Shown here in pieces: positions 7,281-54,420 of a DNA stretch of 64,000 nucleotides. This DNA comes from Clostridium sp. DL-VIII (GTDB taxonomy: Bacteria > Bacillota > Clostridia > Clostridiales > Clostridiaceae): NCBI RefSeq assembly GCF_000230835.1, contig NZ_CM001240.1, positions 4,924,779 through 4,988,778 of the forward strand. Direction: 5' to 3'. A program made the position numbers and the translations under genes. Numbering within the stretch: the first letter of the stretch is position 1; each line of letters starts with the position of its first letter. The notes below the pieces were generated by a model. The model searched no databases and was not told where the DNA came from. It saw nothing but the letters and a program-made list of their open reading frames with translations.

Positions 7281-7459
7281 ATGAAGATCAATAGCTTCAA
7301 ACTTAGAATTCTTACAGCTTCTTGTATTCCATTAAACTGCACTCAACTCTTCAATAAGTTTAAGTACTTTTAACAAAACATATCTTAACATAATCATATT
7401 ATGTAATTTGGGTTTAGCATCACACAAATCCAAGTTAAAAGCTGTTGATTTATATATAG

Positions 7460-7960
7460 TTAAACAATCTTCATTATCTTATCTACAGTTTCTAATATAG
7501 AAAGATTGCTTGTATCAATTTTTTCTGTAGTCATATTCTCATACATTTTAAGACGTTCAATGCTTCTGCTTAAGCAAGCTTCTTCTCTCAAATTACTCTT
7601 AACATCCTGTAGTATCCTCTTTTTCAAAGCTTCTTCACTGCAGGTGAGACTTATCTTAACAACTTCAAAATCCAAATCATTCAATGGCTCTAATACGTCA
7701 CTAAAAATATTTTCTACATGTATTACCCAATTGAAAATAATATATTTTATTGATGAATTAGTTAAAAAGCTTCGTAATAGATACGTTATATTATTAATTA
7801 CCATCTTTTTATTTTCATCATTCACTTTAAAAGGGTTCATCATCCAACACCAATCACCATCAAGCCATACTGAATTTTCAAGTTTTTTATTTAATTCTTT
7901 GCAGGTTGCTGTCTTACCAACCCCCATAGTTCCATTAATAATTATCAGTTTCTTTTTCAT
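7460..7960 (-). CDS. Small P-loop kinase-like ATPase
   Basis: 166 residues with a Walker A at residues 10-17 (GTMGVGKT) directly after an initial beta-strand, the layout of the adenylate/shikimate/nucleoside kinase superfamily (AAA_18/33-type). A WLDGDWCW segment follows at the substrate-binding position and basic LSRSIERLK residues near the end could be the lid. Substrate is not predictable. GGAGGGA lies before the ATG. It sits downstream of a methyltransferase gene on the same strand with a gap of 63 bases; a resistance or small-molecule modification role is possible but unsupported. Confidence 0.7.
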   Translation of the reverse strand: MKKKLIIINGTMGVGKTATCKELNKKLENSVWLDGDWCWMMNPFKVNDENKKMVINNITYLLRSFLTNSSIKYIIFNWVIHVENIFSDVLEPLNDLDFEVVKISLTCSEEALKKRILQDVKSNLREEACLSRSIERLKMYENMTTEKIDTSNLSILETVDKIMKIV

Positions 7961-8023
7961 TATTCACATCTCCCTCCTAAAAGTACTTAATATAATAATA
8001 TACTTTTTAGCTATGAGACAACA

Positions 8024-8674
8024 TCACTTTCTAGCAACAATTATTGTAGTATTTCCAATTCTAAAATTCATCTCAACGTTTTCAAAACCAGCTTTATATA
8101 ACATTTTAATTTGATTATCAATAGTACAAGGCGTATCATAATGATAAAACTCATTATCTTGAATATTGTTTTCTTTTCGTATTCTTTCATTCTCACTATA
8201 ATAAAAATTTTCTTCTTCTTGATTTTCTATCATACAATCGCATTCAATATACTGGCCATTCGCTTTTAATGCATTAAAAACCTTTGAATATAACTTAATC
8301 TTCTTTTCATGTGAAAAATGATGCATAGTTTGAAATGATATTGCTGCATCAAATTTACAGCTACCAAAATCATAATCAAAATAATTTGCATTTATTAATG
8401 ATAAATTCTTATCTGAATGCTTTTGTTTCAACTTATCTAACATAGCCTTAGTTAAATCTATACCGGTTACATGTATATACGGCTTAGTTTTAAATATTTC
8501 ATCAAGTTCTAATCCAGTTCCACATCCCAAATCTAATATTTCATTAACATCTTTTGGCAGCAATTCTGCCATTTTAACATATCCCTCTTTGCATCCTTCT
8601 ACACTATTAATCATATGTTTATCATAATCATCTACGCGTTTAGTAAAAAATTCACTCATTTTTTCTACTGACAC
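8024..8674 (-). CDS. Class I SAM-dependent methyltransferase
   Basis: About 216 residues with the glycine-rich SAM-binding loop ILDLGCGTG near residue 45, an acidic residue at the end of beta-2 (GIDLT) and a post-motif FDAAISFQTMHHF. Substrate unknown. I start at GTG because GGAGG lies eight bases upstream; the longer reading would begin at a TTG that is itself part of this site. Same direction as the kinase-like gene, probably co-transcribed. The divergent 8675-9001 region contains no further feature I can support. Confidence 0.8.
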   Translation of the reverse strand: MSVEKMSEFFTKRVDDYDKHMINSVEGCKEGYVKMAELLPKDVNEILDLGCGTGLELDEIFKTKPYIHVTGIDLTKAMLDKLKQKHSDKNLSLINANYFDYDFGSCKFDAAISFQTMHHFSHEKKIKLYSKVFNALKANGQYIECDCMIENQEEENFYYSENERIRKENNIQDNEFYHYDTPCTIDNQIKMLYKAGFENVEMNFRIGNTTIIVARK

Positions 8675-9001
8675 TTTTGTATCCTCCAATATCTTAATAC
8701 TCTGATAATTAAAACTTTTTAATTACTACGTTTTAAGTGTATCATACCGCCCTGAGGCTCTAAAGCTAATCTTTTTTACGGTCTTAATTTTTATCCTCAA
8801 ACTAATTTCCAAGATCGGTAAATTCAATGATTGAAGCTAAAGGCATTTTCATTCAGCATAGTGAAAAATATATCTAAAATCACAGACTTCACCAACATAT
8901 TCTAAAACAATTATTAGTATGGTATATATTTTTTATAATTTTGCATAATAAAAGTAAATTACCAACTTTTATTGTATTTAAAATATGAAGGGAATGTTTT
9001 T

Positions 9002-9368: not shown

Positions 9369-10577
9369 TTATGATGCACTTAGTTTTTTACTTTTTGTCT
9401 TAATGACTTTAAAAACTATAGTTCCATATATTGCTGCTAAAATTGAAGCAATCATAATACACATTTTTGCCATTGATAATATGGTTGCATCGTCAAATGA
9501 TAAAGATGAAACAAATATTGACATAGTGAATCCAATACCCCCAAGAACACTTGCTCCATATAAATGTCTTTTAGTTACATTAGATGGTAATTTAGCAATT
9601 TTTAATTTTACTAAAATATATGAAGTTCCAAATATACCCACTTGTTTGCCAATAAAAAGTCCAAATATAATCCCCAAACATGCTGGTGAAAATATATTTT
9701 TCGAAAAGCTATCGGCATTAATTGTTATTCCAGCATTTGCAAAAGCGAATATCGGCATAATTCCAAAGCTAGACCAAGGTGTTAAAACATGCTGAAGCTT
9801 ATATAAAATTGAAGATTTAAATTTATGAATATTTTCTCCTATTGGTAATGACATCCCAAGTAAAACTCCTGCAATTGTTGCATGTATTCCAGATTTTAAA
9901 AGGCAGATCCATAGAATTATTCCCATAACAATGTAGACAGAAGTATATTTTATTTTAAATTTATTAGCTAGTAAAAGTGCTATAAAAACTATTAATCCCA
10001 TAGCAAGAGCTAACCATGAAATCTGACTGTTATAAAATATTGCTATAACTATAATAGCTCCTAAATCATCAACTATGGCTAATGCTGTAAGAAAAACAGT
10101 TATACCCTTAGGTGCATTTTTTGCAACTAATGAAAGCATCCCAATAGCAAATGCAATATCTGTTGCCATTGGAATTCCCCATCCTGTAATAGTTACTTCT
10201 TTATAATTAAATAATGCATATATTATTGCTGGAACGATCATTCCTCCTATAGCTGCAGATATTGGAAGTATTGTTTTCTTAAATGATTTAAGCTCTCCAA
10301 ATACTACTTCTCTCTTTATTTCCATACCAACAACTAAAAAGAATATAGCCATGAGCCCATCATTAATCCAATGAAGAACGGACATAGATAAAGATAACTC
10401 ACCGTATCCTATAGTTATATCAGTATGCAGTATATTTTCATACACTGATAAAAACTTTGAATTAGCAACTACAATTGCTAAAATAGTACAAACTAAAAGT
10501 ATTATTCCACTAGCCGATTCATTCTTAAAAAAATATAAAAACGGGGTTAATACTTTATTTTTAATTTTGTTTTTCAT
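9369..10577 (-). CDS. nhaA: NhaA Na+/H+ antiporter
   Basis: 402-residue inner-membrane antiporter expelling Na+ (or Li+) in exchange for protons, important for sodium and pH homeostasis. The predicted ion-binding aspartate pair is Asp170-Asp171 (AIVDDLGA) and about 12 membrane segments are evident (e.g. IILLVCTILAIVVA, GLMAIFFLVVGMEIKRE). Full length. A ~200-nt leader upstream contains structure and an intrinsic terminator, implying control by read-through. Confidence 0.95.
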   Translation of the reverse strand: MKNKIKNKVLTPFLYFFKNESASGIILLVCTILAIVVANSKFLSVYENILHTDITIGYGELSLSMSVLHWINDGLMAIFFLVVGMEIKREVVFGELKSFKKTILPISAAIGGMIVPAIIYALFNYKEVTITGWGIPMATDIAFAIGMLSLVAKNAPKGITVFLTALAIVDDLGAIIVIAIFYNSQISWLALAMGLIVFIALLLANKFKIKYTSVYIVMGIILWICLLKSGIHATIAGVLLGMSLPIGENIHKFKSSILYKLQHVLTPWSSFGIMPIFAFANAGITINADSFSKNIFSPACLGIIFGLFIGKQVGIFGTSYILVKLKIAKLPSNVTKRHLYGASVLGGIGFTMSIFVSSLSFDDATILSMAKMCIMIASILAAIYGTIVFKVIKTKSKKLSAS

Positions 10578-10662
10578 CCATGATCTCCTTCCCTATTCAT
10601 ATGTCCAATAATCTATTTTATAAAACTCTTTTCTTAAATAAAAAAACTCCATAAAACAAAAA

Positions 10663-10693
10663 GGTGAGAATACTCTAAAAAGAGTTTCCCACC
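10663..10693 (-). terminator. Leader terminator upstream of nhaA
   Basis: Read on the minus strand, GGTGGGAAACTC (10682-10693) pairs with GAGTATTCTCACC (10663-10675) through G-U and one bulge, followed by five U. It lies about 85 bases inside the nhaA transcript and before the start codon, so it must be conditional for the gene to be expressed. Confidence 0.6.
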
Positions 10694-10765
10694 CCAGAAA
10701 CTAATTGCTTGAAAACAAATTATATAATTTGCCCAACCGTATCTAGTTATATTTACTTTTTTTCG
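10694..10765 (-). promoter_or_regulatory. Candidate ligand-sensing leader (aptamer) of nhaA
   Basis: Between the promoter and the leader terminator the RNA can form a closing helix AACTA/TAGTT (10744-10748 with 10699-10703) around a hairpin CAAATTA-TAATTTG (10716-10731) flanked by single-stranded GATACGGTTGGG and TTTTCAAGCAAT. Structured RNAs upstream of nhaA genes are known (nhaA-I, nhaA-II and DUF1646 motifs, reported as Li+ or Na+ sensors). I cannot assign this leader to one of them from memory. Position and architecture are what I see; cation sensing is inference. Confidence 0.45.
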
Positions 10766-10938: not shown

Positions 10939-11298
10939 ATGGAAAACACGAAAAGTAAACTTGCCTCTCCTGATATCCCTTTTGCTAAATATTATCTTGA
11001 AAAGAATACCAGATACTTTCATTTAACTGCAGAACCAATTAAACATAATATACTGAGTAACCTTGCTATAAATGCGTTTGGATATAATTGTTCTACTCCA
11101 GGTCCAATAATAGTAATTAAACAAGGTGAATTGATAAGTCTTACTGTAGAAAATAAATTAGATACACCAACTGCACTTCATGTACATGGACTTTCAAAAC
11201 CAAACTGCCAAGATGGAGACCCTGACATAGAGCCATGTACACCTAAGATAATGCCAGCCAAACTTTATAATATACTACAAAAGTTTGCCTGGCATTAA
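10939..11298 (+). pseudogene. Truncated multicopper oxidase (N-terminal cupredoxin fragment)
   Basis: 119 codons matching only the first cupredoxin domain of a multicopper oxidase: FGYNCSTPGPIIVIKQGE, then TALHVHGL (type 2/3 copper ligand pair His-x-His) and the KFAWH that normally leads into HPGTFFYH. A stop codon falls right after that His, and the remaining two thirds of a normal ~450-residue enzyme are missing; the next gene starts at the opposite strand within 25 bases. An AAGGAG site is still present. Not expected to be a functional oxidase. Confidence 0.75.
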
Positions 11299-11320: not shown

Positions 11321-13060
11321 TTATGTCATATTTTCAAATATCTTTGGTACATTCAAGATTCCATATCCCCAATATTGATTAGGTATAATATCTCCGCTTC
11401 TTGCAATTCCTCCTTTTGCAAGATAAGCTTTAAGTGTTTCAGAAAACATTTCTGGCTGATGTCCATCAACAATCCCCCATTGAAACAACATTGCACAAGC
11501 ACCTGAAACAATCGCTGCTGATACACTAGTCCCATTAACTACTGCTGTTTTATTTCCAGGTGCTACAGTCAATGCATTTACGCCACCTGCAGCAATGTCA
11601 ATTACATTTATGTATGACTCCAAGAATGCCATCCCAGAGTAATCAACAATGTTGTTATTATTTTGATTATATGCTGCTGCTGTCAATATATAAAGTGAAT
11701 TACCTGGATTGGTTATTGTCCCAAATGGATCAGCAAAACTAAATCTAGTATTTCCAACAGTTAAACCTCTTTGTGGCAGCCATGCATCATACCTTCCATT
11801 TGTGATATAATTTGCAGTTATCCTAAGCCTCCATATGCCTGGCTGTAAATTATAAAATCTAATGCGTATTAATTCATCTCCAGTAATCTCTTCAGGCAAA
11901 TAATAGTTCACTTTAACATTAGTTTTCTCAAATATGAAGGTAAAATTAAATGTATAATTTATCAAGAGTGATATTGCACCTGTAGTTTCTCCTGATGGCG
12001 ATACCACTTCTAAAGACATTACGTTTGGTACACTAGACCAAATCTGAACTCCCCATAGATTTTTTTGTTCAGGTGATACTATTAGCTCAATAGTTCCTGC
12101 TTCACTTCCTTTAACCCCACTAACTGTAGTTACCACTCCATATGCATGCCCTTCTGCATTCCTTTGATTACCAGTTCCAGTGACTACAGTTATACCCTTA
12201 TTTATTAAAATTGAACTTATGAAGTTCTCTAAAATTCCTGTTCCTTTATGATTTCCTATTGTACTTCCAAGAGGAAAATATATAACCATTGGTTTTCCAT
12301 TTATTAATATATATTCATATAAATATTCTATTGCTGCAAAAATGGCAGTTATATTAAATACTGGAACTTGAGTTTCTGGAAATTGCTTTTCATATGAAAT
12401 GTCCCTTATTAGCTTTACTACTACAAAATTACATTCTGGAACCACTCCCTTTAAATTTTGATCCTTCCCCGTTGCACCAATTATTCCAGCCATATTAGTA
12501 CCATGCCCAATCTCATCTAGAGTAGGAACTATATCATAAGGAGAATTTCCTTCTCTATAAGCTCTTATAGCCTCATTTATTTTGTTCCTATCATATACAT
12601 TTCCAAATGGAACAGGATCATACGTCTTTTCTTCAGTTGTTGTTGTAGTCTGGTCCCAAATACTTTCAATTCTAGTTTCACCATTAACATTCATAAACTC
12701 TTCGTTTAAGTAATCAATTCCCGAATCAATTATTGCTACATTAACTCCTCTGCCAGTTAAGTTTAAGGGTGATCCCACCTGTACGAAACTAGCTTGAGAT
12801 GCCTCAATTGGTGAAACCTGCTGTAAAGTATAAAATTCTGCTGGAACAACATATGTTATTGCCTGTATATGAGGTTCATTCCCCATATTAATTTCAACAT
12901 CTTTCTTTACAGATACTATTGCATACTTATCATTGATTATTGTCACATAATAATTTGGAATCTTCGAAATTTCAGCCTCAATATCTCCCCGATACAGTAC
13001 CACATAGTTATCATAGTTTATATCATTAATTACTCTCTCGGCTAATATGTTCTTCTGCAT
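11321..13060 (-). CDS. Csp-like subtilisin-family (S8) serine protease
   Basis: 579 residues with an intact subtilase triad: Asp112 (VAIIDSGID), His186 (IGHGTNMAG) and Ser512 (NGTSVSAA). An N-terminal ~90-residue prodomain-like region precedes it and a ~130-residue jelly-roll type insertion lies between the oxyanion segment and the serine, as in clostridial Csp germination proteases that activate pro-SleC. No signal peptide, consistent with mother-cell synthesis in sporulation. I start at MQKN because GGGGGAG is adjacent; the longer reading lacks a site. With no sleC next to it the germination role is inferred from family resemblance only. Confidence 0.85.
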   Translation of the reverse strand: MQKNILAERVINDINYDNYVVLYRGDIEAEISKIPNYYVTIINDKYAIVSVKKDVEINMGNEPHIQAITYVVPAEFYTLQQVSPIEASQASFVQVGSPLNLTGRGVNVAIIDSGIDYLNEEFMNVNGETRIESIWDQTTTTTEEKTYDPVPFGNVYDRNKINEAIRAYREGNSPYDIVPTLDEIGHGTNMAGIIGATGKDQNLKGVVPECNFVVVKLIRDISYEKQFPETQVPVFNITAIFAAIEYLYEYILINGKPMVIYFPLGSTIGNHKGTGILENFISSILINKGITVVTGTGNQRNAEGHAYGVVTTVSGVKGSEAGTIELIVSPEQKNLWGVQIWSSVPNVMSLEVVSPSGETTGAISLLINYTFNFTFIFEKTNVKVNYYLPEEITGDELIRIRFYNLQPGIWRLRITANYITNGRYDAWLPQRGLTVGNTRFSFADPFGTITNPGNSLYILTAAAYNQNNNNIVDYSGMAFLESYINVIDIAAGGVNALTVAPGNKTAVVNGTSVSAAIVSGACAMLFQWGIVDGHQPEMFSETLKAYLAKGGIARSGDIIPNQYWGYGILNVPKIFENMT

Positions 13061-13323
13061 TTTCTCCCCCCAATCAAACCACTCATAAGTGTATATAACA
13101 TCCATATATATTTATTGACACGTTCTGATATTTAAGTATATATCAATGAAACCAGCCGCAGTGTGAATTATTTTTTTTTTGCATTGCAGGAAATTTAATA
13201 ATAACTCTTATAGTTAATAATATTTGTTTATTCACTAAATTATCCATTTTATAATCATCTTATTAATTGTTTTAATATATATTTTTCTGTATATATTGAA
13301 ACATATATATGTTCGTATGTATA

Positions 13324-13352
13324 TTGACATATATATACGAAAATGATATGGT
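13324..13352 (+). promoter_or_regulatory. Promoter of the c-di-AMP leader
   Basis: TTGACA (13324-13329), 17-base spacer, TATGGT (13347-13352). Start point expected near 13359, just ahead of the aptamer. The flanking DNA is a run of AT dinucleotides. Confidence 0.65.
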
Positions 13353-13382
13353 TATATAAAGATATAAGCAAAAAATAATATT

Positions 13383-13507
13383 GGTAGCGCTGAATCAATT
13401 TGAACGGGAGAACCAATTATTGGGGTTAATCTTATCAGTATGATAAGTAGGGTTAATTTTCTTCAATCCGAATCCGTCAGCTAATCTCGTAAGCGTTGAA
13501 GAGAAGT
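13383..13507 (+). promoter_or_regulatory. ydaO/yuaA-type cyclic-di-AMP riboswitch aptamer
   Basis: Contains the conserved ydaO-family blocks in order: GGTAGCGCTGAATC, GGGAGAACCAATT, TGGGGTTAATC, GGGTTAATTTTC and finally CCGAATCCGTCAGCTAATC followed by TCGTAAGCGTTG. The closing helix is GCGCT/AGCGT. Established knowledge: this class binds c-di-AMP and generally turns genes off, often osmolyte and K+ transport or cell-wall genes. Here it precedes genes for an osmolyte, which fits. Bases 13500-13507 (AGAGAAGT) can alternatively pair with 13577-13584 (ACTTCTCT) of the terminator. Confidence 0.9.
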
Positions 13508-13562
13508 TTTTAAATACTATAATAATATAGTTTTTTTAGTATACCCATAAATATTATTACTT

Positions 13563-13598
13563 AATAAGCTGTGGAGACTTCTCTGCAGCTTATTATTT
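13563..13598 (+). terminator. Expression-platform terminator of the c-di-AMP riboswitch
   Basis: Arms 13563-13577 and 13580-13594 (AATAAGCTGTGGAG against CTCTGCAGCTTATT) form a strong stem with two wobbles, followed by ATTTTG. The loop-side ACTTCTCT is complementary to the 3' edge of the aptamer, an obvious antiterminator alternative. It lies 40 bases before the first gene. Confidence 0.75.
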
Positions 13599-13634
13599 TG
13601 CTTAATTATAATTAATACTTTAAGGAGGCTTATT

Positions 13635-14495
13635 ATGTTAAAAATATGTGTAATTGGTATTGGAAAAACTGGAAAAGAAATAGCCAAGATGATATTTAAG
13701 CAAACAGATATGAAAATTGTATTAGCCATGTGCAGTCCAGGGAGCACAAAGAAAAATATGGATTTAGGTCAAGCAATCGGAATTCAGGATATTGGTATTA
13801 AAATAGAAGGAACAAATAAATTAGAGGAACTTCTTATAAAATGTAGACCAGATGTTATAGTAGATTTTTCTGCTCCTGAGGCTACATTAAATAACGTACA
13901 AATAATATCCAATCTTGGAATTAATTTAGTTATAGGTACCACAGGTTTCTCTAAGGAGGATTTGGAAAAAATCAGGATGTTGGCTTATAACAATCAGACT
14001 GGTATAGTATATGCACCTAATATTACACTTGGCGTAAATGTCTTAATGGTACTAGCAAAATTAGCATCTATTTTATTAGATAATTACGATTTCCAAGTTA
14101 CTGAATCACATCATAAAAATAAGAAAGATATCCCATCTGCTACAGCACTTAAAATAGTTAACGAAATAGAGGATGGTCTATTATATCTAGGCAAAGATAT
14201 TAGTAAAGACAAAATCCCTACAAATTCAGTCCGCGCTGGTGGTATCGTTGGAAAGCATGAGGTATTAATTGCTGGTGAATATGATAAAATCACAATTTCT
14301 CATGAGTCATTTTCACGAAAAGTCTTCGCCTCTGGTGCAATTCATGCAATAAATTTTATCAAAGACAAAATTGGATTTTATGAAATGAGTGATGTATTAT
14401 CCTTATCAAAAGTTATTGAAGATTTATATATTAAGCAAAAGAAAGAGAATTCTAGCATAAATAAAAAAATGATAGCAATAGATCTTGATAAATAA
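13635..14495 (+). CDS. dapB: DapB-like dihydrodipicolinate reductase paralogue
   Basis: 286 residues aligning with 4-hydroxy-tetrahydrodipicolinate reductase (lysine biosynthesis): nucleotide loop GIGKTGKE (8-15), GTTGFS (101-106), NITLGVNV (129-136) and the active-site segment ESHHKNKKD with His159, His160 and Lys163. The following PSGT of the family reads PSAT (Ala169 for Gly). The last ~30 residues (after the usual ~250) form a charged extension. It is first in a riboswitch-led operon with lysine 2,3-aminomutase and beta-lysine acetyltransferase, so it may boost lysine supply for osmolyte synthesis; acting on another lysine-derived imine is an alternative. Good AAGGAGG site before the ATG. 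Confidence 0.85.
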   Translation: MLKICVIGIGKTGKEIAKMIFKQTDMKIVLAMCSPGSTKKNMDLGQAIGIQDIGIKIEGTNKLEELLIKCRPDVIVDFSAPEATLNNVQIISNLGINLVIGTTGFSKEDLEKIRMLAYNNQTGIVYAPNITLGVNVLMVLAKLASILLDNYDFQVTESHHKNKKDIPSATALKIVNEIEDGLLYLGKDISKDKIPTNSVRAGGIVGKHEVLIAGEYDKITISHESFSRKVFASGAIHAINFIKDKIGFYEMSDVLSLSKVIEDLYIKQKKENSSINKKMIAIDLDK

Positions 14496-14562
14496 TACTA
14501 CTGAAAAAGCCTAAAAATATTCAAGCAGACCCTTGTTAACGTTTAAAAGGAGTGATTAATTT

Positions 14563-15834
14563 ATGAAAAGAAATTATAAAGATATATCTATATGGAAAGA
14601 TGTAACTAAAGAACAATGGAATGATTGGAAATGGCAGATTGCCAACAGAATCACTACTGTAGATGAGTTGGAACAAGTCGTAAGTCTCACAGAAGAAGAG
14701 AAACTCGGAGTAAATGCTAGTCTAAAAAAGCTAAAGATGGCTATTACACCTTATTATGCGACACTAATAGATTCCGATGATTATAATTGTCCAATTAGAA
14801 GACAAGCTATTCCTACCATTCATGAAACAGAAATATCAGAGTATGATATTAGCGATCCCTTACATGAAACAGTTGACTCCCCCGTCCCCGGACTTACACA
14901 CAGGTATCCTGATAGAGTTCTTCTTCTAATTACAGAACAATGTTCGATGTATTGCAGACATTGTACAAGAAGACGTTTTGCTGGGCATGAAGACAGTTCC
15001 TTATGTAACGATGATATTTTAAAAGCTATTGAATATATTAAGGTACATAAAGAAGTACGAGATGTTTTACTTTCTGGGGGAGATGCATTGTGTGTTTCAG
15101 ATGAAAAACTTGAATTTATATTAAAAAAATTAAGAGAAATTGAACATGTTGAAGTTATAAGAATAGGCACCAGAGTTCCAGTAGTTATGCCTCAACGAAT
15201 AACCTCCAATTTATGCAATATAATAAAAAAATATCATCCTGTTTGGATTAATACTCACTTTAACCATCCAAAAGAAATAACTAAAGAAGCAATGCTTGCC
15301 TGTAAAATGCTTGCTGACTCTGGAATTCCCCTTGGTAACCAATCTGTTTTGTTAAAGAATATCAATGATTGCCCTTACATTATGAAAGATTTAGTTCAAA
15401 AATTAGTTAAAAACAGAGTACGACCTTATTATATATACCAATGTGATTTATCCGAAGGAATAGAACATTTTAGAACTCCAGTCTCAGCTGGTATTGAAAT
15501 TATAGAGCTTTTACGAGGACATACTTCTGGATTTGCCGTTCCAACCTTTGTAATAGATGCACCAGGCGGTGGTGGAAAAATACCTATTAATCCTCAATAC
15601 TTAGTATCTCAATCCCCTGAAAAATTAGTACTTAGAAATTATGAAGGTATACTATGTACTTATACTGAACCATCTGATAAAACTCATGAATGTAAAAATT
15701 GCGGTATATGTGATAAATTTAAAAAAGACGATTATAAAGGACTAGAGAAACTCTACAGAGATGAGAGAATATGTCTTACTCCAATGAGCAATGTAAGAAT
15801 GAGAAGGAGGAAAGAATTTAATGAAATCAGATAG
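14563..15834 (+). CDS. kamA: Lysine 2,3-aminomutase
   Basis: Radical-SAM, PLP-dependent enzyme converting L-lysine to L-beta-lysine. The 423-residue product has CSMYCRHC (Cys127, Cys131, Cys134) for the 4Fe-4S cluster, Asp295 and Asp332 at the lysine-binding positions, the PLP lysine Lys339 in GGGGKIP, and a C-terminal Cys set (CKNCGIC) for zinc. Length matches the Clostridium enzyme family. Given the GNAT gene overlapping its end, it serves as ablA of acetyl-beta-lysine synthesis rather than lysine fermentation; no lysine-fermentation genes (kam/kdd/kce) are nearby. AAAAGGAG precedes the ATG. Confidence 0.95.
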   Translation: MKRNYKDISIWKDVTKEQWNDWKWQIANRITTVDELEQVVSLTEEEKLGVNASLKKLKMAITPYYATLIDSDDYNCPIRRQAIPTIHETEISEYDISDPLHETVDSPVPGLTHRYPDRVLLLITEQCSMYCRHCTRRRFAGHEDSSLCNDDILKAIEYIKVHKEVRDVLLSGGDALCVSDEKLEFILKKLREIEHVEVIRIGTRVPVVMPQRITSNLCNIIKKYHPVWINTHFNHPKEITKEAMLACKMLADSGIPLGNQSVLLKNINDCPYIMKDLVQKLVKNRVRPYYIYQCDLSEGIEHFRTPVSAGIEIIELLRGHTSGFAVPTFVIDAPGGGGKIPINPQYLVSQSPEKLVLRNYEGILCTYTEPSDKTHECKNCGICDKFKKDDYKGLEKLYRDERICLTPMSNVRMRRRKEFNEIR

Positions 15835-16678
15835 CTATAAAAATAATAACTATTATACCAATATAGATCGTACTAGAATATATGTAGATTTAACAAGTAG
15901 ACGTGTGAAAATAATTAATAATAGTAATATAACTACTCAAAATCTAAGAAGAATTATTCACTATGCTTCAAAGCAGCATCTAGGCAAAATTATTTGTAAT
16001 TGTACTACTGAATCATCTGAGATTTTTTCAGATGCAGGTTTCAAATTAGAAGGAAAAATTGATGGATTCTTTAAAGGCGAAGATGCCCTTTGCATGTCAT
16101 ATTTTATTAATAGTAATAGAGAATTGTGCAGTAATTTTATTGAGAAAAATTTATTAATAAAAAAATGTTTAGATATAAAAAACACTTTTACTACTAAACA
16201 AAGCAATTTGAATTATACTATAAGAAATGCAAATAAAAATGATATAAAAGAGATGATCAAACTTTTTTCCACTGTTTTTTCAACATATCCCTCTCCTATT
16301 TATGATGAGGAATTTTTAAAGGAAACTATGAATAAAAAAGTTTTATATAAAGTTGCTATTTATGATGGAAAAATTATCAGCATAGCTTCTGCAGATATGG
16401 ATATTGAGAATTTAAATGCAGAAATAACTGACTGTGCTACTTATCCTGCCTATGGGGGGAATGGAGTATTATCTAATATTATTAATTCATTAGAATGTGA
16501 TCTTAAAGCTAAGGGCTTTATGACTTTATATAGTTTATCAAGAGCAATAAATCCGAGTATTAATTATGTGTTAAGTAAGCATAATTATACCTTTACAGGC
16601 CGCATGGTTAATAACTGTAATATCTGCGGCACCTTTGAAGATATGAACATTTGGGTAAAAAATATACACAATGACTAG
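15821..16678 (+). CDS. ablB: Beta-lysine N6-acetyltransferase (GNAT)
   Basis: 285 residues; an N-terminal ~125-residue region of the AblB/YodP type followed by a GNAT domain (about 130-285) with an acetyl-CoA loop around YPAYGGNGVLSNII. It overlaps the 3' end of kamA by 14 bases and its AGGAGG lies inside kamA. AblA-AblB together make N-epsilon-acetyl-beta-lysine, a compatible solute known from methanogens and some bacteria. The pairing with kamA is what makes the substrate assignment convincing; the acetyltransferase fold alone would not. Confidence 0.9.
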   Translation: MKSDSYKNNNYYTNIDRTRIYVDLTSRRVKIINNSNITTQNLRRIIHYASKQHLGKIICNCTTESSEIFSDAGFKLEGKIDGFFKGEDALCMSYFINSNRELCSNFIEKNLLIKKCLDIKNTFTTKQSNLNYTIRNANKNDIKEMIKLFSTVFSTYPSPIYDEEFLKETMNKKVLYKVAIYDGKIISIASADMDIENLNAEITDCATYPAYGGNGVLSNIINSLECDLKAKGFMTLYSLSRAINPSINYVLSKHNYTFTGRMVNNCNICGTFEDMNIWVKNIHND

Positions 16679-16848: not shown

Positions 16849-16897
16849 AAAAAGTTGTTCATAGTGATTTTTGAAATTACTATGAACAACTTTTTTT
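16849..16897. terminator. Bidirectional terminator between the NifX remnant and DUF134 gene
   Basis: Arms 16854-16870 and 16874-16890 pair over 17 bp with one wobble, extended by A and T runs on both sides, giving a U7 tract on the plus strand and a U tract on the minus strand. Confidence 0.8.
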
Positions 16898-49742: not shown

Positions 49743-49986
49743 AAACACCAAGAAAAATCCAAAAGGGACCCTTCTTGGCGTTACCACCCTAATTATTATA
49801 AAATTGCGCGCAATAATCTTATAATCTCTCTTTATCTATAACGGAAATACCCGCTGTAGCCTACTATTATTTCGGTACAGAACTCCAAGGCTGGTTCAGT
49901 ATATAATTTCTAGGAACTTTCACCAAGCATTCCCTCTCTAAATGAAATCACTATACTTACTATTCCTCTTCACAGCAATAATATTT
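49743..49986 (-). promoter_or_regulatory. T-box riboswitch of proS
   Basis: The leader ends with the T-box sequence AGGGTGGTAACG (49779-49790) followed by a terminator with stem ACGCCAAGAA/TTCTTGGTGT (about 49745-49784) and a U6 tract. A long Stem I lies upstream, with GAACCAGCCTTGGAG on its 3' side containing CCA/CCT, both proline codons, as the plausible specifier. Uncharged tRNA-Pro is expected to favour the antiterminator and raise ProS synthesis. Confidence 0.9.
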
Positions 49987-52533: not shown

Positions 52534-54420
52534 GTCGAGTAGAGAAAGCTCTCACGAATTTTCCCCCTCTCAGATCCGTACGTGCCCAATTAAGGCATAC
52601 GGCTCCTCATATTATTTTACAGAACTTGCTATCTATATACATTTACATTTATTTTAGGCTTAGGTAAAGGATTGTACTTCATATACATTTTAAACTTCTC
52701 CAAATCAAAACTTCGCCTTTGGCTTCTGCGGTTCAACCACTTGAAAAGTGCTTTCTTTATTTCTAGATTTCTAGGCAGAATTGACCTATCATATATGAAT
52801 TATCTGTAATTCCACAGTACTGATAATGCCCCATAAGCTTTTGTTTTGTTAATTTAAAAACATCTCCTATATGAAGTTTATTCCTAACAGATTTAATCTA
52901 CTGATTAAAGTCCTTAACTTTTGCCCTAAATTTCTTTTTACTTGTTTTCCTCTTTACTCTAAAGTATCCTCTTTTGCTCTTTGCACAATAATGTGTGAAC
53001 CCAAGAAAATCAAATGTCTCTGCATTTTTAAATCCTCTGCTTTTCCTTGTTTCTTCTGCAAATCTCCCAAATAATATTAGTTTTGATTTAGTTCTCTCGA
53101 CTTCAAGATTAAATTTATTCAGCCTACTAACTAGCAACCTACAGAATTGTCTAGCTTCGCTTTCGTATTGAAAGCAACATACAAAATCATCAGCATATCT
53201 CGTTATTTCGGTTTGACCTCTAAAATTTCTTTTAATTATCTTTTCAAACCATAAATCTAAGGAGTAATGCAAATATATGTTGGCTAATGTATGGGATACT
53301 ATTGAGCCTTGAGGTGTGCCAATTTCTGTTGTCATTATAACACCATTGTCCATTAGTCCCGCTTTGAGAAACTTCTTAACAAGCCTCATTATGTTTGGGT
53401 CACCAATTCTCACTTCTAAGAATTTAATCATCCATTCATGATTTACATTGTTGAAAAATCCTTTAATATCAGCATCAACCACATAATTTATTCTTCCATT
53501 TTCAATCACCTTGTTTAGTGCTTTTATGGCACTATGACAATTTCTTTTAGGTCTAAATCCGTACGAGAACCCCTTAAAGTCAGCTTCATATATAGATTGT
53601 AATATCTTATTTAAAGCCATTTGTACTAATTTATCTTCATAAGAAGGAATACCCAACGGTCTAGTTTTCCCATATCCCTTAGGTATGTAGACTCGCTTTA
53701 CAGCTTGCGGTTTATGACTATGATTTCTTAATTTTACAACTAAATTCTCTATATTATTATCCAGTTCTTTAGAGTATTCTTGTTTTGTTACATCATCTAT
53801 TCCAGTTGCTTTATTACCTAGTAATTGCTTATGGCATTTTAAAAACATTTCTTTTTTAATGGTATAGTGATGTAAATTTTTCTTTTGGTTTTTGTCTAGC
53901 AATTTCTGCTATCTTAATCAATTTTGTTTCCACTAATTCATCTACTCCTGTGCGTAGTAATGTTTCCTTAGTTAAGACAATAATATGTAATCTCCTTCCC
54001 TACTTTGGCATTACCCACTATCATTGGTACTATGATATTATCCGACTCCCCATCAACCTTTTAATATTCTTCCTTTTTATCGGTTGTTTATTATACTCTT
54101 TTTTTTGAGAGTTGATAGAGTCTCCTGAGTTGCTATGTAATCATTGTATAGCATGCTTGGCTCTTTGACCCCGAGGAAGTTATAGTAGACTCGTCATTAT
54201 CGCCTACCATAATATTGCTTTCCAGAGAACCGACACCGTCAGCCTTCCCAACTTTATACTTATTACGAGGCTCATTCACATTCAAGCCTACAACCTAACT
54301 GTCAACGCTTAAAATAAATAGTTACCTATTTATCTCCATGACTCGCTACTGAATGATTTGACTTAATCTTTTCAGAACGGATTTCCACCGATTAAATTAC
54401 ACAACCTTGCTCAGCCGCAC
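52534..54420 (-). mobile_element. Group II intron
   Basis: The 5' end GTGCGGCTGAGC is at 54420. Near the 3' end lies domain V (52573-52605: GAGCCGTATGC...GCACGTACGG with the AGC catalytic triad) followed by a domain VI stem ending in CTACTCGAC at about 52534. A reverse-transcriptase reading frame occupies domain IV. About 1.89 kb, an ordinary size. The intron sits 15 bases after the stop of the WsfD-like gene in the same direction. Exact 3' boundary is uncertain by a few bases. Confidence 0.85.
52629..53990 (-). pseudogene. ltrA: Broken reverse transcriptase/maturase of the group II intron
   Basis: The RT core is intact for 334 codons (GFSYGFRPKRNCHSA; catalytic RYADDFVCCF). But the N-terminal part (GVDELVETKLIKIAEIARQK...FTSLYH) is in another frame, shifted at about 53862; a stop (TAG in place of the Trp of DFNQW) cuts the protein before the maturase domain at about 52898; and the rest (GHYQYCGITDN; KWLNRRSQRRSF) needs a further frameshift. 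The intron is therefore probably immobile unless helped in trans. Confidence 0.8.

Follow-up and report, generated by a model that had tools for sequence, protein, structure and literature searches.

A 64,000-nucleotide stretch of the genome of Clostridium sp. DL-VIII (contig NZ_CM001240.1, positions 4,924,779 to 4,988,778; hereafter the window) carries three same-strand genes, dapB, ablA and ablB, behind a leader that matches the cyclic di-AMP (c-di-AMP) riboswitch class, also called ydaO/yuaA. We consider it very probable that an OFF-type, transcription-terminating c-di-AMP riboswitch controls this dapB-ablA-ablB operon and hence the synthesis of an osmolyte. The parts of the unit, the structural match of its leader and the conservation of the riboswitch-abl unit among relatives were all observed directly. 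The operon is real and was correctly read from the sequence, and the kind of system that it represents is already known; the point of interest is what AblB makes in species without AblA.

Leader and genes of the operon

The elements of the operon and its leader are as follows.

13324..13352, + strand: putative promoter, TTGACA at 13324-13329, a 17-nt spacer and TATGGT at 13347-13352 with a preceding TG (10 of 12 consensus positions)
13378..13510, + strand: c-di-AMP (ydaO/yuaA) riboswitch aptamer, RF00379 (Rfam covariance model)
13388..13391, + strand: 5' strand of aptamer helix P1, partner 13492-13495 (Rfam structure line mapped onto the sequence)
13490..13494, + strand: antiterminator arm 2, 5' strand UAAGC, partner GCUUA at 13588-13592; overlaps the 3' strands of P1 and P2
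13500..13507, + strand: antiterminator arm 1, 5' strand AGAGAAGU, partner 13577-13584 (exact complement)
13562..13595, + strand: intrinsic terminator hairpin of 15 base pairs (bp), loop ACUU, followed by UUUU (1 found, shuffled mean 0.0)
13622..13628, + strand: Shine-Dalgarno sequence AAGGAGG of dapB (by eye)
13635..14495, + strand: dapB paralogue, 4-hydroxy-tetrahydrodipicolinate reductase (TIGR00036, 209.2 bits, cut-off 122; PF01113, PF05173)
14563..15834, + strand: ablA (kamA), lysine 2,3-aminomutase (TIGR03820, 629.2 bits, cut-off 525.4)
15821..16678, + strand: ablB, putative beta-lysine N-acetyltransferase (TIGR03827, 257.6 bits, cut-off 205.1)
16851..16893, + strand: hairpin resembling an intrinsic terminator, possibly the end of the operon (1 found, shuffled mean 0.2)

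An earlier note, made from the letters of this DNA alone, had claimed a ydaO-type aptamer and proposed a covariance search as a check. The RF00379 model matched 13378-13510 (+) with 99.9 bits (E value 1.6e-22) over model positions 1-134 of 134, far above its gathering cut-off of 38 bits. The aptamer is assigned to the c-di-AMP class by this match and would be expected to bind that ligand. In an alignment of 15 leaders, the RF00379 consensus helices were paired in 98.7% of 390 cells; a single pair changed on both sides, a value matched by 92 of 500 shuffles, so that covariation contributes nothing here. Upstream of the aptamer, promoter-like matches around 13324 were at chance level (7 found, shuffled mean 6.2); of 15 abl leaders, 11 have TTGACA within 80 bases upstream of the aptamer and 10 contain TTGACATATATAT.

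The genes were named with NCBIfam models, and DapB, AblA and AblB all exceed the curated equivalog cut-offs, which bears out the dapB-like/kamA/ablB unit described in the earlier note. The ablA and ablB open reading frames (ORFs) overlap by 14 bases. The HHxxK-D-PS-T region of the window DapB aligns with solved DapB structures, and the glycine of SGTA is an alanine in the window. A sequence search at E 0.001 returned no relative of AblB among solved structures. In the genome of the window, the only AblA-family match at E 0.001 was the ablA of the operon, and two diadenylate cyclase domains were found. A second full dapB lies at 3865222, following asd-like and dapA-like ORFs (both named by eye), and the dapB of the window is thus an extra copy.

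The same genome contains a reduced copy of the operon (L006:7316-8794), headed by its other c-di-AMP aptamer (7316-7449). Here, the terminator is present, dapB is a remnant, ablA is gone and ablB (7913-8794) is intact, its product being 78% identical to the window AblB over 283 residues.

The hairpin at 13562-13595 is the single intrinsic terminator between the aptamer and the genes. Among 17 leaders, six pairs of its helix were altered on both sides; none of 500 shuffles scored as high, and slid versions of the helix gave 0-3. The first antiterminator arm is an exact 8-nt complement, AGAGAAGT/ACTTCTCT, at 13500-13507 and 13577-13584, and a complement to this 8-mer turned up in 42 of 20000 base shuffles of 13511-13620. 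Taken alone, this 8-bp arm lies outside all Rfam aptamer helices. The second arm (5 bp) shares bases with P1 (13492-13495) and P2, in their 3' strands, as well as with the 3' strand of the terminator, which makes the antiterminator, by position, exclusive with both the aptamer and the terminator. Counting 11 pairs, the antiterminator was paired in 97.9% of 187 cells in the 17 leaders (37-55% for slid versions); counting 13 pairs, in 99.5% of 195 cells in 15 leaders. Both the antiterminator pairing and the terminator claimed from the letters were recovered. In G187, a genome of another genus (locus L094), ACUUCUCU is kept, although the terminator there is differently built and its 8-base loop contains six of the eight bases of ACUUCUCU. 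When a partial transcript of the window ending at 13594 was folded, the antiterminator probability was 0.77 if the P1/P2 strand was left free and 0.01 if it was blocked, the effect of blocking being clear at ends 13592-13594.

We infer ligand binding, the direction of the switch, the enzyme activities and the product of the window operon as follows. At high c-di-AMP, when turgor and K+ are sufficient, the aptamer would fold, P1 and P2 would close and occupy 13490-13495, and the terminator at 13562-13595 would form. When c-di-AMP drops under osmotic stress, 13490-13494 would pair with 13588-13592 and 13500-13507 with 13577-13584; this antiterminator would break up the terminator in its upper and 3' part and let transcription run on into the operon. 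DapB would then boost the lysine supply, AblA would convert lysine to beta-lysine, and AblB would acetylate the latter to N-epsilon-acetyl-beta-lysine, a neutral compatible solute. Most likely, then, c-di-AMP binding terminates transcription and low c-di-AMP switches osmolyte synthesis on, the OFF direction being taken by analogy with a described switch (PMC9337991). The earlier note had the riboswitch driving the operon; the proposed control link is supported, and 'driving' would here mean that an expected repression is relieved at low c-di-AMP.

Riboswitch-abl linkage among relatives

In a genus sample of 68 genomes, 16 c-di-AMP aptamers were detected in 12 genomes, using strict filters that weak aptamers may escape. 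Thirteen of them precede, and share the strand of, ablB, dapB-ablB, dapB-ablA-ablB or remnants of these genes. The remaining three precede genes for a glycine-betaine transporter (G035), a Na+/H+ exchanger-type protein (G054) and a STIV_B116-like protein (G004). The last of these, at L059:3814-3947, is a weak aptamer (60 bits) with an unusual target. AblB scored above its cut-off in 11 of the 68 genomes, at 16 loci; an aptamer heads at least one AblB locus in 10 of these 11 genomes, and 12 of the 16 loci in total. The exception is G066 (C. vincentii), where the region before ablB (L063:4837-5240), inspected by eye, is missing the aptamer and retains a promoter-like stretch, a terminator and an altered tail.

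A survey of the class (291 genomes) yielded AblB above the cut-off in 18 genomes, at 19 loci, and an aptamer lies directly before abl genes at no fewer than five of these loci, i.e., at least twice in G000 and once each in G004, G187 and G341. A candidate riboswitch-ablB locus in G122 was rejected, because a TrkH gene stands directly behind that aptamer. In G004, group II intron signals (RF02004, RF00029) were found on the minus strand at L046:4123-4949, in the gap between the riboswitch leader and dapB, seemingly inserted at the first codons of dapB.

ablB without ablA and the competing readings

The complete order riboswitch-dapB-ablA-ablB was found in the window, G048, G067, L041 (C. homopropionicum), G004, with its group II intron signals, and G012, where dapB is split over two overlapping frames about 2.4 kb ahead of ablA. 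The order riboswitch-dapB-ablB occurs in G007 and, with ablA fragments in between, in G030. The first site of G002 has riboswitch-dapB with fragments of ablA and ablB, and the shortest arrangement, riboswitch-ablB, is present at the second sites of G002 and G007 and in G003, G013, L042 (C. oryzae) and G187. Overall, six of the 11 genomes in the genus that encode AblB also have an AblA above its cut-off. The AblA family had no match at E 0.001 in G002, G003, G007 and G013, the assemblies of G002 and G013 consisting of 2 and 1 contigs, respectively; tblastn recovered a 50-residue ablA fragment in G002, and G030 holds only an ablA remnant with stops. Among 16 AblB-encoding genomes from outside the genus, AblA passed its cut-off in 11 and had only a match below it in G130. 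No AblA match was obtained in G187, G198, G156 and G176; G187 and G156 are single-contig assemblies, and absence from G198 (88% complete) and G176 (about 520 contigs) is weak evidence.

The ratio of nonsynonymous to synonymous substitution rates (dN/dS) of ablB was 0.047-0.095 among G002, G003 and G013 and 0.06 between G007 and G002, the latter at a saturated dS of 1.8. Two comparisons in which both members have ablA gave 0.20 and 0.27, and all ten computed pairs fell within 0.047-0.266. These low values indicate purifying selection, and the ablB genes without ablA are thus not decaying. In an AblB tree of 19 rows, from which three more distant AblB rows (G012, G066) were left out, 10 of 16 inner branches were open and the outgroup was split; parsimony gave five changes of ablA state, a number of losses that is not firm given the poor resolution of the tree.

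That several relatives keep ablB with no ablA beside it speaks against acetyl-beta-lysine being the product in every one of them, and AblB may have a second product, such as N-acetyl-alpha-lysine. Tentatively, and with rather less than even confidence, we suggest that the c-di-AMP switch is tied in this group to the acetyltransferase and not to the whole beta-lysine pathway. The c-di-AMP link to osmolyte synthesis put forward in the earlier note holds as regards the linkage of riboswitch and abl genes, which is conserved in the genus, and is qualified as regards acetyl-beta-lysine, which is perhaps not made everywhere.

Several observations weigh against a c-di-AMP OFF switch for acetyl-beta-lysine synthesis as set out above. 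Of the 11 genomes in the genus that encode AblB, five have a broken ablA or none and keep the riboswitch and ablB. The Rfam P1 helix was not recovered in an unconstrained fold of 13378-13610. With the 15 closest leaders, the terminator shows three two-sided pairs, which 56 of 500 shuffles reach. The antiterminator has no pair changed on both sides, and all 500 shuffles reach it in every measure, so that its support is conservation, not covariation; versions slid by -3, -1 and +3 had one two-sided pair each in the 17 leaders, two of them with a higher covariation score. In folding of partial transcripts with the P1/P2 strand free, the antiterminator probability fell to 0.33 at end 13595, 0.19 at 13600 and 0.002 at 13605. 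The completed terminator thus wins even with P1/P2 open, and the choice must fall during transcription. Finally, blocking P1/P2 lowered the antiterminator probability by at least 0.2 in only 4 of the 17 leaders; such folding was tried as a general proof of switching and rejected, since it fails in most relatives.

One alternative keeps the same OFF switch and makes acetylated alpha-lysine or another diamine the important product, or one of them, with AblB acting without AblA on lysine fed by dapB. It is compatible with acetyl-beta-lysine synthesis and does not exclude it. The genomes with riboswitch and ablB in which an AblA-family match is missing (G002, G003, G007, G013 and G187) or reduced to a remnant (G030) speak for it, as do the constraint on ablB among G002, G003 and G013 (dN/dS 0.047-0.095) and the dapB-ablB arrangements of G007, without ablA, and G030, with mere ablA fragments in between. 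N-epsilon-acetyl-alpha-lysine is moreover a known solute (PMC2329653, PMC4685198). However, the AblA of the window is intact, the ablB-only loci also lack dapB, and according to PMC2329653 this compound had as of 2008 been reported only from aerobic Firmicutes; we regard the alternative as somewhat unlikely.

Two further readings are far less probable. Because lysine fermentation also begins with lysine 2,3-aminomutase, the operon could serve that process, via beta-lysine, rather than osmoprotection, and an AblA match of C. oryzae (L098) indeed lies in a different cluster, among ORFs that by eye resemble lysine fermentation genes. In the window, however, the ORF list inspected by eye had no fermentation-type gene beside ablA (no genome-wide search for others was made), and this ablA, the sole AblA-family match of the genome at E 0.001, is preceded by a biosynthetic gene, followed by an acetyltransferase gene and headed by a c-di-AMP aptamer; a fermentative role is highly improbable. 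We give equally little credence to the riboswitch being a relic that has decayed or become constitutive and regulates nothing. Reduced operons exist, and L063 of C. vincentii (G066) has by eye lost the aptamer and kept the terminator, but the aptamer helices are nearly always paired (98.7% of 390 cells, 15 leaders) and the terminator covaries in 17 leaders.

If the proposed function of the abl operon and its switch is right, this riboswitch class would in the genus serve mainly (13 of 16 aptamers) to place de novo osmolyte synthesis under c-di-AMP alone, and a lysine-supply gene, dapB, would be part of the c-di-AMP-controlled unit. Natural versions without ablA make the substrate range of AblB directly testable. 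An ablB frameshift is one of two frameshifts in a highly transformable C. pasteurianum strain (PMC5734229), and ablB may thus matter for strain handling.

Neighbouring elements and known systems

Two further elements of the window lie outside the operon.

9369..10577, - strand: nhaA, Na+/H+ antiporter, behind the Na+ riboswitch (TIGR00773, 420 bits, cut-off 254)
10683..10738, - strand: Na+ riboswitch (RF03071) before nhaA (62.7 bits, gathering cut-off 40.5)

This pair (9369-10738, -) and the c-di-AMP riboswitch are 2.6 kb apart on opposite strands, and L046, L051 and L052 also have Na+ aptamers in the neighbourhood of their abl locus. Positions 10939-11298 probably hold a gene remnant, encoding 119 residues from the N terminus of a multicopper oxidase (PF07732), and 11321-13105 (-) encodes a subtilase related to the germination proteins CspBA/CspC, far below their cut-offs. 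By eye, similar ORFs neighbour riboswitch-ablB in G013 and G003 (L095, L100), which suggests the same chromosomal place. Elsewhere in the window, 49761-49982 (-), 52534-52607 (-) and 54159-54385 (-) gave matches to a T-box leader and, twice, to group II introns.

The ydaO/yuaA class was reportedly described as a c-di-AMP riboswitch by Nelson and colleagues in 2013; the window aptamer resembles it in covering the full RF00379 model and differs in its target operon. Methanogens and green sulfur bacteria, whose abl genes are said to have been described by Pfluger in 2003 and Triado-Margarit in 2011, share the ablA-ablB pair, to which the window adds dapB and RNA control by c-di-AMP. Product formation without AblA has precedents in the acetyl-alpha-lysine reports (PMC2329653, PMC4685198), which do not concern anaerobes.

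The closest known system is that of Dehalobacter sp. CF, where, according to White et al. 2022 (PMC9337991), a Na+/c-di-AMP tandem riboswitch before ablA was shown in vitro to form an 'A and not B' gate with c-di-AMP as the OFF input and c-di-AMP-dependent termination; a review (PMC9481103) repeats this gate. A c-di-AMP riboswitch on the abl pathway has thus been published and the idea is not new, and, with the link established for ablA in Dehalobacter, novelty is lower than the earlier note implied. Our literature search on c-di-AMP riboswitches with an aminomutase found no precedent besides this one, and further prior art is possible. Both systems have a c-di-AMP aptamer with its own terminator before a lysine 2,3-aminomutase gene, the same osmolyte logic and an alternative pairing that uses the right shoulder of P1. 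In Dehalobacter this shoulder pairs with the left shoulder of the terminator, whereas the pairing in the window takes the loop and the right shoulder. A scan for a Na+ tandem covered the window and 24 other loci, of which 17 carry a c-di-AMP aptamer (L093 and L094 were left out), and no Na+ aptamer was found directly upstream of a c-di-AMP aptamer in the window or in those 17; a tandem gate in the window was rejected, as there is no adjoining Na+ aptamer. Unlike Dehalobacter, the window thus has no Na+ aptamer directly ahead, its Na+ aptamer being that of nhaA, 2.6 kb off and on the opposite strand, and its operon has three genes including dapB. White et al. also report Na+ riboswitches with dapB, ablA and eam, which likewise place lysine-supply or beta-lysine genes under an osmotic RNA sensor; in the window, the sensor is a c-di-AMP riboswitch, and its expected sign is OFF instead of ON.

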